Source: Candidatus Terraquivivens yellowstonensis | Lineage (GTDB): Archaea; Thermoproteota; Nitrososphaeria_A; Caldarchaeales; Wolframiiraptoraceae | Direction of reading: 5' to 3' | Assembly: GCA_023539445.1 (NCBI GenBank) | Contig: JAKCEW010000001.1 | Location: 177,503 to 241,502, forward strand | DNA length: 64,000 bases | Shown here: positions 5,202-21,787 of the stretch, piece by piece | Position numbering within the stretch: the first letter of the stretch is position 1 | How the letters are laid out: each line of letters opens with the position of its first letter | Notes under the pieces: generated by a model | Told to the model about the DNA's origin: nothing | Seen by the model: only the letters and a program-made list of their open reading frames with translations | The model's database searches: none | Made by a program: the position numbers and the translations under genes

Positions 5202-5930
5202 TTAAACCCGTCTCCTATCTCTCAAAAGCTGTTGTAGGATGGGTATTTCCTTTACTTTTTCGGCAGACAAATCCTCCCAGTATATGCCGCTAGGTTTTGC
5301 CTTACGTGGCTTAACTTCATAGAAACTGTTCCTAGTTACTATATAGTCAACTGGTACGTCGTAACGATCGTGCGGTACATATTCAACGATTTGGAGTTCA
5401 TGTACTGTCGTTGCAACGGGAACGCTATCATTAACTTTCCCGAGCTCCCTCAATATAGCATATTCTATTTCACCGTAACCCTCGCCTTTACCAAGCCTCC
5501 AGCCCTCTCGGGATACGGCTACAGAACCTAGAACGATTAGGTCTATGCTGGGGGCCTCAGATGGTGAGATTGATTTACCAAACTTAAAGCTACCCTTTAT
5601 AGTGGCAGCCTCATCTACACTATTGCTAGGTATCTTTCTAGGGTCTAATAACAGAAAACCGGAACTTAACCTCGGAGTTGGCATCAGAAGCACCTTTCCG
5701 TCCCTTAATGCCGCACGTCTGACCTCAAGCTGAGGTGAATCTGGATTTACCTTTACAACCTCGGCTTTTCTGTATATGGGCGCACGACATAACATATGCG
5801 CAGCTTCCTCGGCACCCACAAAGTTTGGTATTCTTCCAAATATGGGCTTTGGAAATCTTGCTACGCCTCTTTCTTCAAGCAATCTCCATACAGTTTTTCT
5901 TATTTCGTCTTTTGATACGCTTGTGCACAT
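5202..5930 (-). CDS. 5-formyltetrahydrofolate cyclo-ligase family protein
   Basis: Member of the MTHFS/5-FCL family, which classically converts 5-formyl-THF to 5,10-methenyl-THF using ATP. The C-terminal core LGSVAVSREGWRLGKGEGYGEIEYAIL (about residues 133-158) is the conserved nucleotide/folate-binding region, followed by the VATTVHELQI strand. Archaeal members of this family with a longer N-terminus often lack proven folate activity, so the reaction is uncertain. Sits immediately upstream of the ROK kinase. Confidence 0.75.
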   Translation of the reverse strand: MCTSVSKDEIRKTVWRLLEERGVARFPKPIFGRIPNFVGAEEAAHMLCRAPIYRKAEVVKVNPDSPQLEVRRAALRDGKVLLMPTPRLSSGFLLLDPRKIPSNSVDEAATIKGSFKFGKSISPSEAPSIDLIVLGSVAVSREGWRLGKGEGYGEIEYAILRELGKVNDSVPVATTVHELQIVEYVPHDRYDVPVDYIVTRNSFYEVKPRKAKPSGIYWEDLSAEKVKEIPILQQLLRDRRRV

Positions 5931-6012
5931 TTAGCATTACTCAACCCGTTCTTCAGATATTACATCCTATTTATACATCGCCTGACGTTAAGCAGTCGTA
6001 AATTATCGGACT

Positions 6013-7141: not shown

Positions 7142-8563
7142 TTATTGGTCGTGCTTGGTTAAGAATGATGGCCTCGCCTCCAAGAACTCAAAAAGAAACT
7201 TACGGAAACTAATATTTTTTGAAGCAAGTCTAGCAAGTTCATCATTGGATTTGCATATTTTAGCGTGCTTAACGGCCTCCATAAGTCCGGCCGAAACACT
7301 TACGTCACCTCTTGCTAACCTCATCCTAATTATATCTTTTACTGAAGTCTTGGCTCTTGATTTAAGCACGTAAAGTCTTAAACCGCTAATCCACGGACCA
7401 GCAACAGTATCTTGTGCCGTAGAGTGCTTTTTGACGAACTCCAATGCGTTAGCCAGATACGTTGGTGGACCATGGTGGACGTAACAGGTGGGTAAATTTA
7501 ATTCCTGAAGTTCAAAAAGCATGATACACATATTGCCCTCGGACCATGCATCGTACCTGAACGTCTTAAAACCTTCATATTCTAAAGCCCTACAAATTCC
7601 CTTTAATGTATGTTTTATCTCACCCCAAAGAACGTCTGGTGGTTTCTGCTGAACTTTCAATCTCAGTCCTAATATGCATCTACCCCTTAGCGCCCTTCTT
7701 ATTTCTGTCATCATTATGCGCCCATTGGTGCGCTCGGGAATGTAAAAAAACTTCTCACTCGGCGAATCAAGAAACAATTTTGATGCAAGGATGAATTCCG
7801 ATAACTTCGTATCGGTTATGGCAGCGGCAACGTTCCTTTTTTTGTCAACAGGGTCGATAACTAAGATGTGCGGTCTACCAAAAGCCTCTAAAGCCTCCCT
7901 CTTATCTGTATAATGTCCCTCGATGTCTACATATATAGGAGGTCTCCAATTTGAAGCGGCTTTTAGGGCATTATAGAAATTACCATAATTTATCGTGAGG
8001 AGTTCTGCGAGGTAGCCGCTGAAACCACCAATCCTTATCTCTGCTCCATAGACGCCGCAACCAAGCATGAAAGATTTCATCAATCTAATCTCGTCAGCAA
8101 GCGCTTCAGTAAGCTTCGATTTGATGTACTCAGTATGATAAGGTGTTCTATCAACAGCACTCAGCCACATGCCGCACTCAACTTTGTAGCATGCGACGAT
8201 GTTAACTCTCACACCGCTGATTATGCCCTCTACGTAAGGATGCTCGGCATATCTGACCTCCGTTTTTCCACCAAACTTCTTAATAACACCATTACCTATC
8301 TCTAGGATTGTCTTCTCCAAACTGTCCTTATCCACATCTTTTGAGAATTGAACAAACACGTCTATCTCTTCCCTACCTCTTATCCATGTGCCCTTAGCCA
8401 CCGAACCTTCGAGTCTGGCGTCAAGTATTCCTTCATAATTATTTGACAAGTCCCTCACAGTTTTCAGTAACTCATTAGCTAGCCGCATAAGCCTCTCTGA
8501 TTCTATGAGTGAAGGTCTTATCTTCTGCAAAACTTCTGCCGTAACCTCTTCTACACTCTTCAA
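7142..8563 (-). CDS. cca: CCA-adding enzyme (class I archaeal tRNA nucleotidyltransferase)
   Basis: Adds or repairs the 3'-CCA of tRNAs without a nucleic acid template. The class I nucleotidyltransferase motif GSVAKGTW is at residues 53-60, with metal-binding acids in REEIDVF (Glu66/Asp68). Length (473 aa) and the C-terminal domains fit archaeal CCA enzymes. None of the tRNA genes in this window encodes CCA, so the enzyme is required. It lies 3 bp from thpR and 11 bp from the kinase gene, in one leftward operon. Confidence 0.93.
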   Translation of the reverse strand: MKSVEEVTAEVLQKIRPSLIESERLMRLANELLKTVRDLSNNYEGILDARLEGSVAKGTWIRGREEIDVFVQFSKDVDKDSLEKTILEIGNGVIKKFGGKTEVRYAEHPYVEGIISGVRVNIVACYKVECGMWLSAVDRTPYHTEYIKSKLTEALADEIRLMKSFMLGCGVYGAEIRIGGFSGYLAELLTINYGNFYNALKAASNWRPPIYVDIEGHYTDKREALEAFGRPHILVIDPVDKKRNVAAAITDTKLSEFILASKLFLDSPSEKFFYIPERTNGRIMMTEIRRALRGRCILGLRLKVQQKPPDVLWGEIKHTLKGICRALEYEGFKTFRYDAWSEGNMCIMLFELQELNLPTCYVHHGPPTYLANALEFVKKHSTAQDTVAGPWISGLRLYVLKSRAKTSVKDIIRMRLARGDVSVSAGLMEAVKHAKICKSNDELARLASKNISFRKFLFEFLEARPSFLTKHDQ

Positions 8564-16145: not shown

Positions 16146-16934
16146 TTGGTAAGGTTTTCCTTAAGACGTATTCAAGAAAGGCTTGTCCCAAAATCCGAAA
16201 ACCAAAGCCAAGGTAATATAGACACCCAAAATTATGAAATTCTGGTACAAAAGATTGAGGACTCTTTAACAAACCTGTCCGTCCAGGTTAATAAGCTACG
16301 GATGAGGTATCAGAATATGCTATCTAGAAGCAAAGAGTATTTTGAAAGATGTATAGATGCTTTAGTTGCTAGGGACAATGAAAGGGCCAAGATGTATGCT
16401 GTTGAAATAGTAGAAATAAAAAGGCTGGCTGACATAGTTGTGAGATGTTGCCTAGTCCTTGAGCAGATAAAGGTTAGGCTTGAAACAATATTAGAACTGG
16501 GCGAAGTGATGGGTCTGATAGTCCCATTAACCTCAATAATAGAGGCAGTTGAAAAGGAAGTATCGCTTGTCGTTCCCGAGGCATCGAATAGTCTCAGGGA
16601 ACTCGCGGAGACCATAGAAGACTTCACTTCCTCATCTTCAGCATATGTTGATACAACACCGACCGGTGATGTTCAGATCAATAAAGACGCAGAAAGCATC
16701 CTAGAAGAAGCAAGAAGAATAGCAGCAGAGCAGGTGAGGAAGAGCTTCCCAGAAGTGCCAGTTCTGACAGAAGAAGAACGCATGGTTTACTCCTACATCA
16801 TGAAGTGTGGTGATGAGTTAGACATAACAAAGTGTGCGTCAGAACTTGGACTTAATGTATCGCAAGTGAAGGTTGTTATAAGTAGCCTTCAAGAAAAAGG
16901 GTTAATAGAGGTGCAAAGTACCGAGATGACATGA
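16146..16934 (+). CDS. cdvB: CdvB, ESCRT-III-like cell-division protein
   Basis: ESCRT-III homologue that forms the constricting division ring in Cdv-based archaea. Residues ~30-165 are the long-helix ESCRT-III core. The SFPEVPVLTEEE segment (200-211) resembles a MIM2 motif that docks the CdvC MIT domain. Residues ~212-258 form a winged-helix domain (DITKCASELGLNVSQVKVVISSLQEKGLIEV) known in CdvB to bind CdvA. The start appears to be TTG. It is convergent with cdvC, with only 14 bp between stops, rather than in one operon. cdvA is not in this window. Confidence 0.85.
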   Translation: MVRFSLRRIQERLVPKSENQSQGNIDTQNYEILVQKIEDSLTNLSVQVNKLRMRYQNMLSRSKEYFERCIDALVARDNERAKMYAVEIVEIKRLADIVVRCCLVLEQIKVRLETILELGEVMGLIVPLTSIIEAVEKEVSLVVPEASNSLRELAETIEDFTSSSSAYVDTTPTGDVQINKDAESILEEARRIAAEQVRKSFPEVPVLTEEERMVYSYIMKCGDELDITKCASELGLNVSQVKVVISSLQEKGLIEVQSTEMT

Positions 16935-16948
16935 AATATTTTAAGTTT

Positions 16949-18070
16949 TTAAGTTGCGTACTTGGCCGCCCATTCTTCCAACTTCTTGAGGTTTTCCATA
17001 ATTATTGATGACTTCCTCTTACTAATGACCTCTAAGAAATCCTGCATTTCTATCGCTCTAGGCTCCGTCTTTTCAGCGTTACCTTCTTCAAAAAATTCCC
17101 TAGCGACCTTCAGTTGGACTTCCATACAAATATCGTGAATATCGGCCGCTGAATATCCTTCCGTCATGACTGCAAGTTGCCATGTATCAACGGATTGGCC
17201 GAGTTTAAGGTCTTTGGTGTAGTAAGAAAATAAGGCAGCCCTAGCATTAAGATTTGGTAAAGGAACGTATATTCGCTTCTGAAAACGTCTGATGAATGGT
17301 TCATCAAGCATCCAAGGTTTATTTGTCGCTCCTATCACATACAAGTACTCCTTCTTACCCTTCTCGGTTAGACTATCCATCTCCTTTAGTAGCTGATTCC
17401 TTGCCCTAGCCTCACCGCCTACCTCGATATATCTAACAGATGTCAGCGAATCTATTTCGTCTATAAATATTATAGCTGCGCCCTGCTTTTTGCAAGCATT
17501 CCTAGCTGTCGCGAAAAGCTGTGCTATGTTTTTCTCGGACTCTCCCAACCATTTTGACATAACTGTTGCAGCATCCACGTAGAAGAATGCAGCATCCATT
17601 TCATTAGCAACGGCGGCGCCCACTAGTGTCTTACCGCAACCAGGAGGCCCAAATAACAGTATACCAGTAGGCCATCCTAAGGGGAATAATTCCGGCTTCA
17701 ACTTTGGGTATACTATGCTTTCCCTTATCGCCCTCTTAACCTCGTCTATTCCTATTATGTCTTCCCAGTTAACTCTAGGCCTATCCTTAAGTATCCATTC
17801 AGTCCCCTCTTCAACACCGGCGGCCTTAGCATCCCCCTCAGAAACAATAACCCTTTTTGCATCTATAAGCTGAAGCCTTCTTTGGTATTCGCGAATCTTC
17901 TCAAGATACACCGAACGTATTGTTTCGTCTTCTGTCATGAAATAAAGTTTCGTCAGAATGTCAATAGTCTCTTTGTACTTTACGTAGGCCTTTTCTTTTG
18001 CACCTATCCTATCTAAGTAAACGGCTTCCTTAGCCTTTTCAGCTGCCATTCTTTCAAGCTCGTTAAACAT
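16949..18070 (-). CDS. cdvC: CdvC, Vps4-like AAA ATPase
   Basis: AAA ATPase that remodels ESCRT-III (CdvB) polymers at division. N-terminal MIT helices (residues ~1-75) are followed by a linker and one AAA module. Walker A GPPGCGKT is at 141-148, Walker B IFIDEID at 201-207, and arginine-finger region FIRRFQKR near 265. The ring-pore loop is KWLGES. 373 aa is standard. Faces cdvB tail to tail. Confidence 0.92.
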   Translation of the reverse strand: MFNELERMAAEKAKEAVYLDRIGAKEKAYVKYKETIDILTKLYFMTEDETIRSVYLEKIREYQRRLQLIDAKRVIVSEGDAKAAGVEEGTEWILKDRPRVNWEDIIGIDEVKRAIRESIVYPKLKPELFPLGWPTGILLFGPPGCGKTLVGAAVANEMDAAFFYVDAATVMSKWLGESEKNIAQLFATARNACKKQGAAIIFIDEIDSLTSVRYIEVGGEARARNQLLKEMDSLTEKGKKEYLYVIGATNKPWMLDEPFIRRFQKRIYVPLPNLNARAALFSYYTKDLKLGQSVDTWQLAVMTEGYSAADIHDICMEVQLKVAREFFEEGNAEKTEPRAIEMQDFLEVISKRKSSIIMENLKKLEEWAAKYAT

Positions 18071-18225: not shown

Positions 18226-19560
18226 ATGATGGAACAGTACGAGGCAATTAAACGTCGACTCAAGTTCAGACGGGACCTGATTCATAAGAAGCATGAGACT
18301 CCACAGTTGGAGAAAAAATGCCGAGAAGAGGGTCTAAATTTTCTATACAAACTCTCGGCCCTAGCTTTCTTGGTTAGTTTCAATAAACACCCCTCACTCA
18401 GGATGAGAAATACTCTGTCAACAATCTTGGAGCTTTTGGAAGTGTACGAATATATGCTACGCGGTCTATCTAGGAACCCGCTTTGTTTGAATTATGAGAG
18501 ACTCCTCGGACTAGGCTACATGAAACGAAAGCACTGGGTATATGCCGCCTACATAGGCTTAATAAGCTCGCTACCGGTTTTGTACAAGGTTAGCCCTTAC
18601 AACGACATTATCCGTGCAGCTATAGCAAAAACATCTTTTGGTACCAGCGTAAAACTGCTCGATAACCTAAATGATAACGTTCATGAGTTGGATGTAGCGC
18701 TTACATCTCTAAGAAATCTATTATCCGCCTACACTAGAGGTGTGTACGAGCCAAACGTAGATCGTGAGAATGAGGTGGCGAGAGCTGAGAATTCCGCATT
18801 AGAGATCGGGACTTGGATATACGCGATGATTAACGCGAATGGAAGCAAGCCGAACGATACGTTTGAAATCTACGTTAAAGACGTCAGAAAATTAATAATG
18901 GGACAAATAGATTCTCTATCGCATAAGGATAAAAAAAGGAGCGAAATACCTACGATGAAAGATTACATGGAATATATTTTAGAGAAGAACATAGGCGACG
19001 TTTGGTTCGATATAGATCTCTGTTTCTTCGAGAAAGGATTAGGTGGTTTAACGTCCGGTGAAATGACGGCTCTCACGTTGGTGAAACAAGGTGTGTCATT
19101 AGTGTTCAAAGCGGCAGGATTATACGATGACGTCGTGGACGCTTACGATGATATAACATCGAACTCCATTAATAGTGCTATACTTCTCGCCATAGAAAGA
19201 GGTCTGTTATCGTATGATGATCTCCGTGTAATTGAACCAGCAAGGACTTTCAAAATACTTTCAAAGGCTGGAATTTTTAACGATATAATTAGAATGGGTG
19301 ACGCTATGCATGTAGCAGGTTTAAACATGATAAAGGAGGGTCTAAAATATCCAGTCGGTCAGCTTATAGATGGTGACGCGCTATTAAACATATGCGACTT
19401 CATCCGACTCTTTTCTATAAGAAAGTACTTGATAAGGGAGAAGAAATTCCGTCAATCGTTGGCATTTATAAGATCTCCAAATCCATCCACTACGCTTCCG
19501 AAGGACTTAAGTTTGCTATGGAATACAATAAGAGAAAAATCCATGCAGGTGTGCCATTAA
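18226..19560 (+). CDS. Candidate class I isoprenoid-synthase-fold protein, divergent
   Basis: I do not recognise a named family with certainty. The 444-aa protein is almost entirely helical and has two Asp-rich motifs of the DxxxD type: DNLND at 146-150 (with Asp156 nearby) and DDVVDAYDD at 301-309. They are ~155 residues apart, the spacing expected for magnesium-diphosphate sites in trans-isoprenyl/squalene/phytoene/terpene synthases. The second motif is followed by TSNSINSAILLAIERG, resembling the region after the second motif in that fold. The first ~120 residues are an extra helical region. It is followed by the V4R protein 63 bp downstream. An isoprenoid-related function is a hypothesis; it could be a non-catalytic relative. 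Confidence 0.45.
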   Translation: MMEQYEAIKRRLKFRRDLIHKKHETPQLEKKCREEGLNFLYKLSALAFLVSFNKHPSLRMRNTLSTILELLEVYEYMLRGLSRNPLCLNYERLLGLGYMKRKHWVYAAYIGLISSLPVLYKVSPYNDIIRAAIAKTSFGTSVKLLDNLNDNVHELDVALTSLRNLLSAYTRGVYEPNVDRENEVARAENSALEIGTWIYAMINANGSKPNDTFEIYVKDVRKLIMGQIDSLSHKDKKRSEIPTMKDYMEYILEKNIGDVWFDIDLCFFEKGLGGLTSGEMTALTLVKQGVSLVFKAAGLYDDVVDAYDDITSNSINSAILLAIERGLLSYDDLRVIEPARTFKILSKAGIFNDIIRMGDAMHVAGLNMIKEGLKYPVGQLIDGDALLNICDFIRLFSIRKYLIREKKFRQSLAFIRSPNPSTTLPKDLSLLWNTIREKSMQVCH

Positions 19561-19623
19561 AAGGTGTTTATACGCGGATTTGATAAAAAAGATAAATCCT
19601 ACTAATTATTTTATGTTACGAAG

Positions 19624-21066
19624 ATGAAAAAATTTTTTGTGGGGCACGAAATATTTGATGAAATAGCTGACATTTATTATGGCTCAGCGATACTTGTTTT
19701 GGATGACGGATACGGTGAAGCATTACGTCTTCTCATGAACTTGGTGAAGACCCAAAGACCAATGAGGTTAATGACCGGATGGACTCACTCGCCAGCGGAA
19801 AATGTGAGATTTATAACACCATCGAGTCTGAACGATGTAAGTATAGCAGTTAACGAATTGAGGAGAGGCGCCCAAGAGAGTGTGCTGATCCACGAATATT
19901 TGCCAGACATTTTAATAAAGTACGAGCATGACACAATATTGAAGCTGCTGGAAACATGGAAGCACGAAATACAAAACAACAGGACTGTTGAGTTCTACTT
20001 GCTACCAAAAGGAGCTTTTCCCGAGATGGAGAAAAAGATTCTGGCAATTTTTGATGGAGGTCTAGAAGTCAGGTTATCGCATGCAAAAAGGTTGAGCGTG
20101 CACGAATTCGTACTTATAAAATGTTGTCGTCCAGAATGGAATTTAAGACCTGTGAGATACGAATACAAGGATGATAGAGTTTTGATAGAATGGTATGGCG
20201 AGATGACCGACAAGTTGATACGGCTCTCGCCCGAAATGGTGGACGAAAAAATAAGATATTATAAGGCGAACATCAACCGTTTGAAATTAAAAATAGTACG
20301 TAAAGAATTGACGGAACCTATTACGGAATACTTATGGCTTTTTTCATATTTCGATGACGCTTCCCTTCTTGACGTTAAGCTACTCTTCCCTGAAAACTTC
20401 GATAATTTGTTAAAGAAAATAGCCGTCTGGGAATTACAAGGATACCTGCGCGTCATTGAGTTTGAAGGAGAACCAACTAAATATATTGAGCCAGTAAAGA
20501 ATGAGCAGATGAGTTTTAAGACGAGACTCGCTTTGAGATTGCCTCCATGGTTCTTCTTCAGATTTCTGGGCATAAAGGAAGGTGCAAGAGTTCCGGGTAG
20601 CGTTTATAACATAGAAGGAAAAGTCATGCTCGAATTCATAAAGAACTTGGTTTGTGGTGATGAGACCGAATACAAGGAGGCGATTGAAAGGTTGATGAAG
20701 ATTAAGGAGGATTTTCATCAGATAATAGGTAGACAGAGGGCCTTAGAAGCAATTCGAGAAATAGGCGAAAACCCGATGAAGAAACTTGACGTGAAATACT
20801 TACCAAAAATAATGATGTTAACACTTTACTTCGGATTTAGGTTAAAATGCGAGGTGGAAACAGTCAGTAGCAATGTTTTCAGAGTAAGGGTTCCTGATTG
20901 CTTCCTTTGTAAAGACGCAGTATCTGAAATTCCAATATGCGCGGCCATTACTGGAGCTCTCTCAGGGGCAGCCTCTGTTGTATTCAAGGAGCCAGTACAT
21001 GCAAAAGAGATAAAGTGTAAAGCTACTGGGCATGATGAATGCGTATTCGAACTTAGGGTCGGTTAA
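19624..21066 (+). CDS. Multi-domain protein with C-terminal V4R domain
   Basis: 480-aa protein. Residues ~1-150 look like an alpha/beta domain (ILVLDDGYGEALRLLMNLV, then SVLIHEYLPDILIKY) reminiscent of a RecA/KaiC-type fold lacking a Walker A. Residues ~215-310 are helical, perhaps a winged helix. Residues ~320-480 form a V4R domain, with the Cys-rich end FLCKDAVSEIPICAAITGALSGAA and KCKATGHDECVFEL. V4R domains bind small hydrophobic or aromatic ligands, and sometimes metal, and act in regulation or tetrapyrrole chemistry. It lies 63 bp after the isoprenoid-synthase-like gene and overlaps the convergent HAD gene by 14 bp. Confidence 0.65.
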   Translation: MKKFFVGHEIFDEIADIYYGSAILVLDDGYGEALRLLMNLVKTQRPMRLMTGWTHSPAENVRFITPSSLNDVSIAVNELRRGAQESVLIHEYLPDILIKYEHDTILKLLETWKHEIQNNRTVEFYLLPKGAFPEMEKKILAIFDGGLEVRLSHAKRLSVHEFVLIKCCRPEWNLRPVRYEYKDDRVLIEWYGEMTDKLIRLSPEMVDEKIRYYKANINRLKLKIVRKELTEPITEYLWLFSYFDDASLLDVKLLFPENFDNLLKKIAVWELQGYLRVIEFEGEPTKYIEPVKNEQMSFKTRLALRLPPWFFFRFLGIKEGARVPGSVYNIEGKVMLEFIKNLVCGDETEYKEAIERLMKIKEDFHQIIGRQRALEAIREIGENPMKKLDVKYLPKIMMLTLYFGFRLKCEVETVSSNVFRVRVPDCFLCKDAVSEIPICAAITGALSGAASVVFKEPVHAKEIKCKATGHDECVFELRVG

Positions 21067-21787
21067 TACCAATTATATTCAAAATATCCATGAGGTTTCT
21101 GGACTTGATGACATAGTGAGCGTTTTTCTTTACATGCCTTTTAGCAAGCCAGAGTATTAGACGTAATTTTGCTTGTTCAAAAGTATTCAATTTTAACTTT
21201 AGGAGTTCACGCTCTAAACATCCTGAGTCAAACATTATGCTTGTACCTACAAGCCTAAATAGCGGTATATTAGAAGCATCATCTCCAATAGCGGCGCACT
21301 CGCTAAGCAAAATACCGTGCCGCGAGGCTATCTCGGAAAGGATTCTGCCCTTGTTCTCGAAGTTAACTATAGGGTGCTCTATGTTAACAAAGACTCCGTT
21401 TTCGATCCTTACATGTGTACCAACAAAAAAATCAAGCCCAAGCCTCTTCCCCAAAATCTCCAGAAAATACTGAGAAGCGCCAGTGCTTATAGTTCCTACA
21501 ATTATGCCCTTATCCTTCATAATCCTTACAGCCTCTTCTGCACCACGCATTAATGGAACTTGCATAAGCAAATTCTTAACGTATTCCTCTTTAACACCAA
21601 TGAATAGTTGTAATGCTTTCTCCATCGCTTGATTAAAGTTTATTTTTGAGGTCACAAGGTCTTTATATATTGAGATAAGTTTATCACCGAAGCCAAGCCG
21701 CTCGGCAACGAAGATGGATACGTAACCATCAACCAAAACGCCATCACAATCAAACACGACGAGTTTAGGTATAGTTTTTCTTAACAC
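21053..21787 (-). CDS. HAD-superfamily phosphatase, SerB-like
   Basis: Magnesium-dependent phosphohydrolase. HAD motif I is FDCDGVLVDG (nucleophile Asp13, acid Asp15), motif II the Thr/Ser in GTISTGASQYF, motif III Lys in NKGRIL, and motif IV IGDDASNIPLF. The helical cap between motifs I and II resembles phosphoserine phosphatase. 244 aa. Substrate unknown. Convergent with the V4R gene (14-bp overlap). Confidence 0.75.
   Translation of the reverse strand: MLRKTIPKLVVFDCDGVLVDGYVSIFVAERLGFGDKLISIYKDLVTSKINFNQAMEKALQLFIGVKEEYVKNLLMQVPLMRGAEEAVRIMKDKGIIVGTISTGASQYFLEILGKRLGLDFFVGTHVRIENGVFVNIEHPIVNFENKGRILSEIASRHGILLSECAAIGDDASNIPLFRLVGTSIMFDSGCLERELLKLKLNTFEQAKLRLILWLAKRHVKKNAHYVIKSRNLMDILNIIGINRP

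Follow-up and report, generated by a model that had tools for sequence, protein, structure and literature searches.

A candidate family of class I isoprenoid-diphosphate enzymes paired with V4R-domain proteins in Thermoproteota

Genes at the locus

The window analysed here, a stretch of 64,000 nucleotides from Candidatus Terraquivivens yellowstonensis (contig JAKCEW010000001.1, positions 177,503 to 241,502), originates from an archaeal genome of 1.16 Mb. It encodes a 444-aa protein whose gene is followed after 63 nt by the gene of a V4R-domain protein, which overlaps by 14 nt with a convergent gene for a HAD phosphatase (Table 1). These genes, together with the motifs DNLND (residues 146-150) and DDVVD (residues 301-305) of the 444-aa protein, had been described in an initial annotation made from the DNA letters, and all of them are present. 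The 444-aa protein is best explained as member of a new and highly divergent family of class I, i.e., metal-dependent and ionisation-initiated, isoprenoid-diphosphate enzymes. As judged from its sequence, the probability of this reading is roughly 70%, which likewise applies to membership of the protein in the class I isoprenoid synthase superfamily. Regarding the order and spacing of the sequence landmarks, the type I terpene synthases fit better than other branches as nearest relatives, followed by the trans-prenyltransferases.

Table 1. Positions of the module, its motifs and surrounding genes in the window.
Feature	Position	Strand	Basis
444-aa class I isoprenoid-synthase-like protein, ATG start	18226..19560	+	ORF (open reading frame) list
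DNLND, residues 146-150, DxxxD; putative Mg2+ ligands	18661..18675	+	D146, N147, D150 invariant 24/24
K254; putative diphosphate contact at the pyrophosphate-sensor position of terpene synthases, 47 residues before the triad	18985..18987	+	invariant 24/24
DDVVDAYDD, residues 301-309; triad D301/D305/D309 at the place of NSE/DTE	19126..19152	+	invariant 24/24
480-aa V4R partner: unnamed region of about 400 residues and C-terminal V4R domain (420-478)	19624..21066	+	PF02830
HAD-IB phosphatase, SerB-like, 244 aa	21053..21787	-	PF00702, TIGR00338
ESCRT-III-like CdvB and Vps4-like CdvC, directly upstream of the module	16146-18070		
Second V4R-domain protein, running off the contig end	63540-63998	-	PF02830 E=2.3e-14

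Conservation and distribution of the enzyme family

The family was assembled from 25 loci including their flanks, plus the fragment L106, all of them from Thermoproteota, and conservation was counted over 24 aligned members that are 24-72% identical to the window protein. The alignment contains 32 invariant columns. Invariant in 24/24 members are the basic residues K100, K102, K135, K143, K254, R394, R399 and K400, the acidic residues D146, D150, D219, D264, D301, D302, D305 and D309, and additionally N147 and Q227, while G226 is present in 23/24. This number of invariant acidic and basic residues in the family indicates a metal/phosphate active site. The two Asp motifs are not chance occurrences; they hold even in homologues of only 24-31% identity to the window protein, and the four aspartates D146, D150, D301 and D305, for which the initial annotation had proposed a conservation check, are kept throughout the alignment.

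Among named relatives, Candidatus Terraquivivens tikiterensis (L003) is the nearest in which the gene is present, with a protein of 73% identity. In profile searches, 10 of the 44 genomes of the class contained members, i.e., 6/6 genomes of the window's genus and four genomes of a second family (f2), as did 16 of 398 genomes sampled across the phylum. Another Thermoproteota class, which may be Bathyarchaeia, contains members in 13 of 256 genomes. Most relatives lack the gene, the distribution of which is thus patchy. No members were found in the viral contigs searched.

Similarity to known isoprenoid enzymes

Type I terpene synthases possess an Asp-rich motif near position 90 and an NSE triad near position 230; relative to the triad, a sensor Arg is usually located 46 residues upstream and an Asn 8-9 residues downstream, and the C-terminus contains an RY pair (PMC8450962). 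The family shares with these enzymes (PF19086/PF03936) the order and spacing of the Asp motif, a basic sensor residue and a triad of 0/4/8 periodicity, furthermore an N/S after the triad, a C-terminal Arg and the solubility. The DxxxD motif stands 150-158 residues before the acidic triad, compared to about 140 residues between Asp motif and NSE/DTE in terpene synthases. K254 stands 44-48 residues before the triad across the family, N316/S317 follow 7-8 residues and R399 83-98 residues after the last triad residue. By hydropathy no transmembrane segments are present, as at most three windows exceed 1.6 in the family vs 32-64 in true UbiA neighbours. In the real order four of four terpene synthase landmarks are found, while of 20,000 block shuffles 77 contained three of them and none contained all four; two of the landmark windows were set or widened after inspection of the data, and the spacing test is therefore taken as supporting evidence with no formal P value.

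Among the sub-threshold family matches the type I terpene synthases are the best. The member L113 matches PF19086 at E=3.9e-4 (1.1e-4 for a fragment of 190 residues) and PF03936 at E=5.1e-3, with bit scores below the gathering scores (20.7-22.5 vs 23.7 and 16.6 vs 26.3, respectively). The position of NSE in both models was located by scanning self-written short terpene-synthase-like consensus peptides and falls at 153-161 of PF19086 and at 195-203 of PF03936. L113 D276, equivalent to D301, maps to position 154 of PF19086 and 195-196 of PF03936, counted back from the alignment ends, so that two related models place the triad of the family on NSE within one residue. In hhalign comparisons of the whole family with a terpene synthase profile, which was built from plasmid-borne genes, 158 columns are aligned, with N/S/E opposite D301/D305/D309 and the sensor Arg opposite K254; none of the hhalign scores, whether against terpene synthases, geranylgeranyl diphosphate synthase (GGPPS) or squalene synthase (SQS), exceeds those of decoys, and these registers are thus weak support.

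Besides the scores below cut-off and the windows chosen post hoc, several further points weigh against this assignment. The window protein matches no Pfam or NCBIfam model at E<=1, in line with the earlier statement that no matching archaeal family is known, and the terpene synthase matches are confined to 1/24 members scanned against Pfam. As the scores are under the cut-off, derive from models of one superfamily and from one member, type I terpene synthase membership is formally not assigned. The motifs differ as well. The DDxx(x)D of type I terpene synthases is replaced by DNxND in the family, and their ND(L,I,V)xSxx(K,R)E corresponds to DDxxDxxxD, with Asp for both Ser and Glu. The sensor Arg is replaced by Lys and the RY pair is absent; moreover, the upstream K-x-K and GQ motifs of the family are unlike type I terpene synthases. 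An AlphaFold2 model calculated from two sequences has a pLDDT (predicted local distance difference test) score of 33.5 and contains helices only, which is no evidence on the fold. It agrees, at this low confidence, with the helical character assigned earlier. Searches of PDB sequences with family profiles and single members returned unrelated chance matches and no homologue. Finally, within the window there is no isoprenoid gene beside the enzyme gene, except possibly the HAD phosphatase gene.

The isoprenoid-synthase reading of the initial annotation is partly supported, namely by the invariant Asp motifs, the class I landmark order, the Pfam match in register and the isoprenoid genes found as neighbours in other genomes, but the squalene/phytoene-type spacing it had proposed is not. 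Squalene/phytoene synthases (PF00494) also contain two Asp motifs roughly 150 residues apart, the spacing is however not colinear with that of the family (p about 0.45-0.5, i.e., no signal), and PF00494 matches 0/24 members, so this identity is rejected. The own genome encodes no PF00494 protein and thus no squalene/phytoene synthase, and the 444-aa protein is hence not simply a companion of that pathway. The class IB large terpene synthases (YtpB/PF10776) presumably have a first Asp motif of LDNL type like that of the family; in 25 genomes PF10776 was matched by none of the member loci at E<=10, which speaks against this class. In UbiA prenyltransferases the motifs NDxxDxxxD and DxxxD are found (PMC7839719), the spacing of which resembles that of DDxxDxxxD and DxxxD in the family. 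In UbiA (PF01040), however, NDxxDxxxD precedes DxxxD, while the order in the family is reversed, transmembrane segments are absent and no Pfam match is obtained, which sets the family apart from the UbiA prenyltransferases.

A terpene-synthase-like protein of 470-480 aa was observed on haloarchaeal plasmids of Actinarchaeum halophilum and Halocatena marina (L157 191-1612 and L166 164-1603). It is labelled as SRPBCC family, carries the motifs DDQLD/DDYFD and NDIYSLPKE/NDVYSLQRE, and its gene shortly precedes that of a polyprenyl synthetase.

Partner proteins and gene neighbourhood

V4R domains are predicted to bind hydrophobic ligands and to act in effector signalling, and they share a common ancestry with the TRAPP component Bet3 (PMC2253512). 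In the partner protein the domain PF02830 covers residues 420-478 (E=3.9e-15, 56.1 bits vs a cut-off of 31); it was matched in 12/12 partner members scanned, and in the partner alignment Cys426, Cys429, Cys439, Cys465 and Cys473 are invariant. The first approximately 400 residues match no family. The partner is therefore a V4R protein, as had been proposed, yet it contains more than the ligand-binding domain, namely an unnamed conserved region. By hhalign the N-terminus aligns with KaiC at P=0.03 only and may represent a degenerate KaiC/RecA-like domain. Regulators of MsvR type likewise possess a C-terminal V4R domain with conserved cysteines and their model NF053755 gives a weak match (5.5e-11), although with 42.6 bits vs 220 the 480-aa partner is far below the cut-off and differs by its unnamed region. 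Given the predicted ligand binding by V4R domains, a putative role of the partner as isoprenoid sensor would be natural. The second V4R protein of the window has, in its visible part, no counterpart of the long N-terminal region seen in the 480-aa protein.

The phosphatase of the window belongs to the HAD superfamily (PF00702 1.4e-13, with PF12710 also matched). The nearest equivalog model is SerB (TIGR00338, 3.2e-28), the score of which lies below the cut-off (98.8 vs 144 bits), so that the protein is SerB-like, as stated earlier, but is not assigned as SerB. A HAD gene is found near the enzyme gene in 15/25 loci. A HAD_2 phosphatase gene separates the enzyme and V4R genes in three f8 genomes, and further HAD genes are adjacent in L033, L107, L111, L113, L037 and L115. 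As these HAD genes come from two subfamilies, the phosphatase step may have been recruited more than once.

The neighbourhood survey proposed with the initial annotation revealed that the trio of enzyme, V4R protein and HAD phosphatase is kept in 6/6 gene-bearing genomes of the genus, in the order CdvB, CdvC, enzyme, V4R protein, HAD phosphatase. Across the family, the V4R partner is at most one gene away from the enzyme in 21/23 evaluable loci (L109 and L114 were left out as they lie at contig ends), the two exceptions, where no partner was detected, being L111 and L113. In each of the four f2 genomes the genes follow the order UbiE-like methyltransferase (PF01209 7.5e-19), V4R protein, UbiA (PF01040 1.5e-24), enzyme and KaiC-like ATPase. 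In a comparison with other UbiA proteins, no clear ortholog of this UbiA emerged; the best one showed about 26-33% identity. In L032, L110 and L111 a flavoprotein of the geranylgeranyl reductase family adjoins the enzyme. It scores above the cut-off of TIGR02032 and is nearest to digeranylgeranylglycerophospholipid reductase (NF041080 2.1e-79, 1.8e-96 and 7e-88, respectively, all below cut-off). Genes for KaiC-like ATPases are located near the enzyme gene in several lineages.

Proposed function and alternative explanations

Gene order, residue invariance, spacings and the families of the neighbours are direct observations, and a catalytic mechanism can be proposed for the module, with fold, metal binding, substrate, product and sensor role being predictions. 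D146/D150 and the triad D301/D305/D309 would hold an Mg2+ cluster, and K254 together with the C-terminal R394/R399/K400 would hold the diphosphate. The enzyme would then ionise an allylic diphosphate, probably geranylgeranyl diphosphate (GGPP), a substrate suggested by the two PF00348 synthases that the own genome carries. The resulting carbocation might be cyclised, might undergo elimination or might be captured by an acceptor, and in relatives, the product would pass to the UbiA, the UbiE-like methyltransferase or the geranylgeranyl reductase encoded next to the enzyme. The V4R partner of 480 aa would most likely act as dedicated sensor or regulator for a hydrophobic compound, either product or substrate; within the same pathway, the HAD phosphatase might remove a phosphate. 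As UbiA and a UbiE-like methyltransferase are encoded in f2 and a reductase elsewhere, a quinone- or lipid-type product is as plausible as a terpene hydrocarbon.

Archaeal membranes are built from isoprenoids. A limited text search of the open-access literature, which is no proof of absence, retrieved no described terpene synthase family from Thermoproteota. We tentatively suggest, as a possibility falling somewhat short of even odds, that the family comprises new class I terpenoid synthases of thermophilic Thermoproteota, which make an undescribed isoprenoid, are under control of an own V4R lipid sensor and use interchangeable tailoring partners (UbiA, UbiE-like methyltransferase, geranylgeranyl reductase, HAD phosphatase). 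Candidate products would be a terpene, a quinone side chain or an unusual ether lipid. The core of the module proposed in the initial annotation, i.e., enzyme, sensor and phosphatase, survives as hypothesis, with the closest relative changed to type I terpene synthases and with a strengthened argument from the gene neighbourhood. The pair of enzyme and V4R protein across several Thermoproteota families would point to a novel isoprenoid product and also to an archaeal way of sensing hydrophobic lipids, and it would provide V4R domains, predicted sensors related to TRAPP Bet3 (PMC2253512), with a concrete enzyme partner.

Instead of a terpene cyclase, the protein could be a trans-prenyltransferase, in which the ionised allylic diphosphate is attacked by isopentenyl diphosphate or a different acceptor, resulting in chain elongation, in head-to-head or branching coupling or in the transfer of a prenyl group to a polar acceptor. 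This is rather unlikely, though it is a sub-reading of the proposed class I enzyme and compatible with it at the level of the fold. The family shares the colinear order K..D..GQ..K..DD..R with trans-prenyltransferases (PF00348), such as the GGPPS of the own genome (L038). Its K-x-K, Asp motif, GQ, K and D-rich elements follow the order GGKRxRP - DDxxD - GQ - KT - FQxxDDxxD, with spacings of 46/80/28/47 compared to 39/67/27/41 in that GGPPS. In shuffles the colinear score gave p 0.010-0.023 in a post hoc test, which is low in power, since the known relatives SQS and GGPPS fail it, too. One member weakly matches hexaprenyl-diphosphate synthase (NF045628, E=0.016), and a chemistry of quinone or lipid type would fit the UbiA, geranylgeranyl reductase and UbiE-like neighbours. 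On the other hand, GGKRxRP, the first aspartate-rich motif DDxxD and the second, FQxxDDxxD, are all missing from the family, PF00348 matches none of the 24 members even at E<=10, two PF00348 synthases are already present in the genome, and the 0/4/8 triad D301/D305/D309 is the pattern of NSE. Furthermore, a first hhalign alignment with GGPPS placed GQ on GQ, K254 on the K of KT and YDD on the second Asp motif, while a second one with more sequences showed a different register, i.e., the comparison is unstable.

It is improbable, to a greater degree, that the protein is an unrelated all-helical Asp-rich metal enzyme, e.g., a phosphohydrolase, that resembles the isoprenoid synthases in spacing by chance. 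Such an origin would agree with family matches that are below threshold and from a single member, with the non-significant profile-profile scores and with the occurrence of unrelated weak Pfam matches in the family, such as PF03015. It would leave unexplained that the four landmarks occur jointly (none of the shuffles did so), that two terpene synthase models match the same member in register and that isoprenoid genes recur as neighbours. Least probable is a non-catalytic regulatory or lipid-binding descendant of an isoprenoid synthase that reads isoprenoid levels together with the V4R protein, as suggested by the near-obligatory pairing with this predicted hydrophobic-ligand signalling domain (PMC2253512) and by the KaiC-like ATPase genes nearby in several lineages, since such a protein would not need the proposed metal and diphosphate ligands, which are nevertheless invariant in 24/24 members down to about 25% identity.

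Further genes near the module

The adjacency of CdvB and CdvC possibly reflects a link of membrane remodelling to the proposed isoprenoid module, or it is due to chance. A CdvB-related gene was also observed approximately 5 kb from the enzyme gene in two f8 genomes (L034 3691-4314; L035 15384-16007). Between the V4R gene and the enzyme gene of L108, a protein of 228 aa is encoded (7350-8036) that appears to be membrane-embedded and matches neither Pfam nor NCBIfam models; it may resemble carotenoid hydratases of CruF type. L115 contains, beside the group of HAD, V4R and enzyme genes, a gene of the phosphatidylserine decarboxylase family (5438-5992; PF02666 3.3e-39) as a neighbour from lipid synthesis. 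The f2 genome G003 encodes, separate from the module, a carotenoid-like cluster (L149 4855-8075) composed of a phytoene-desaturase-like protein (by its N-terminus), a PF00494 synthase and a UbiA protein, with a GGPPS nearby.

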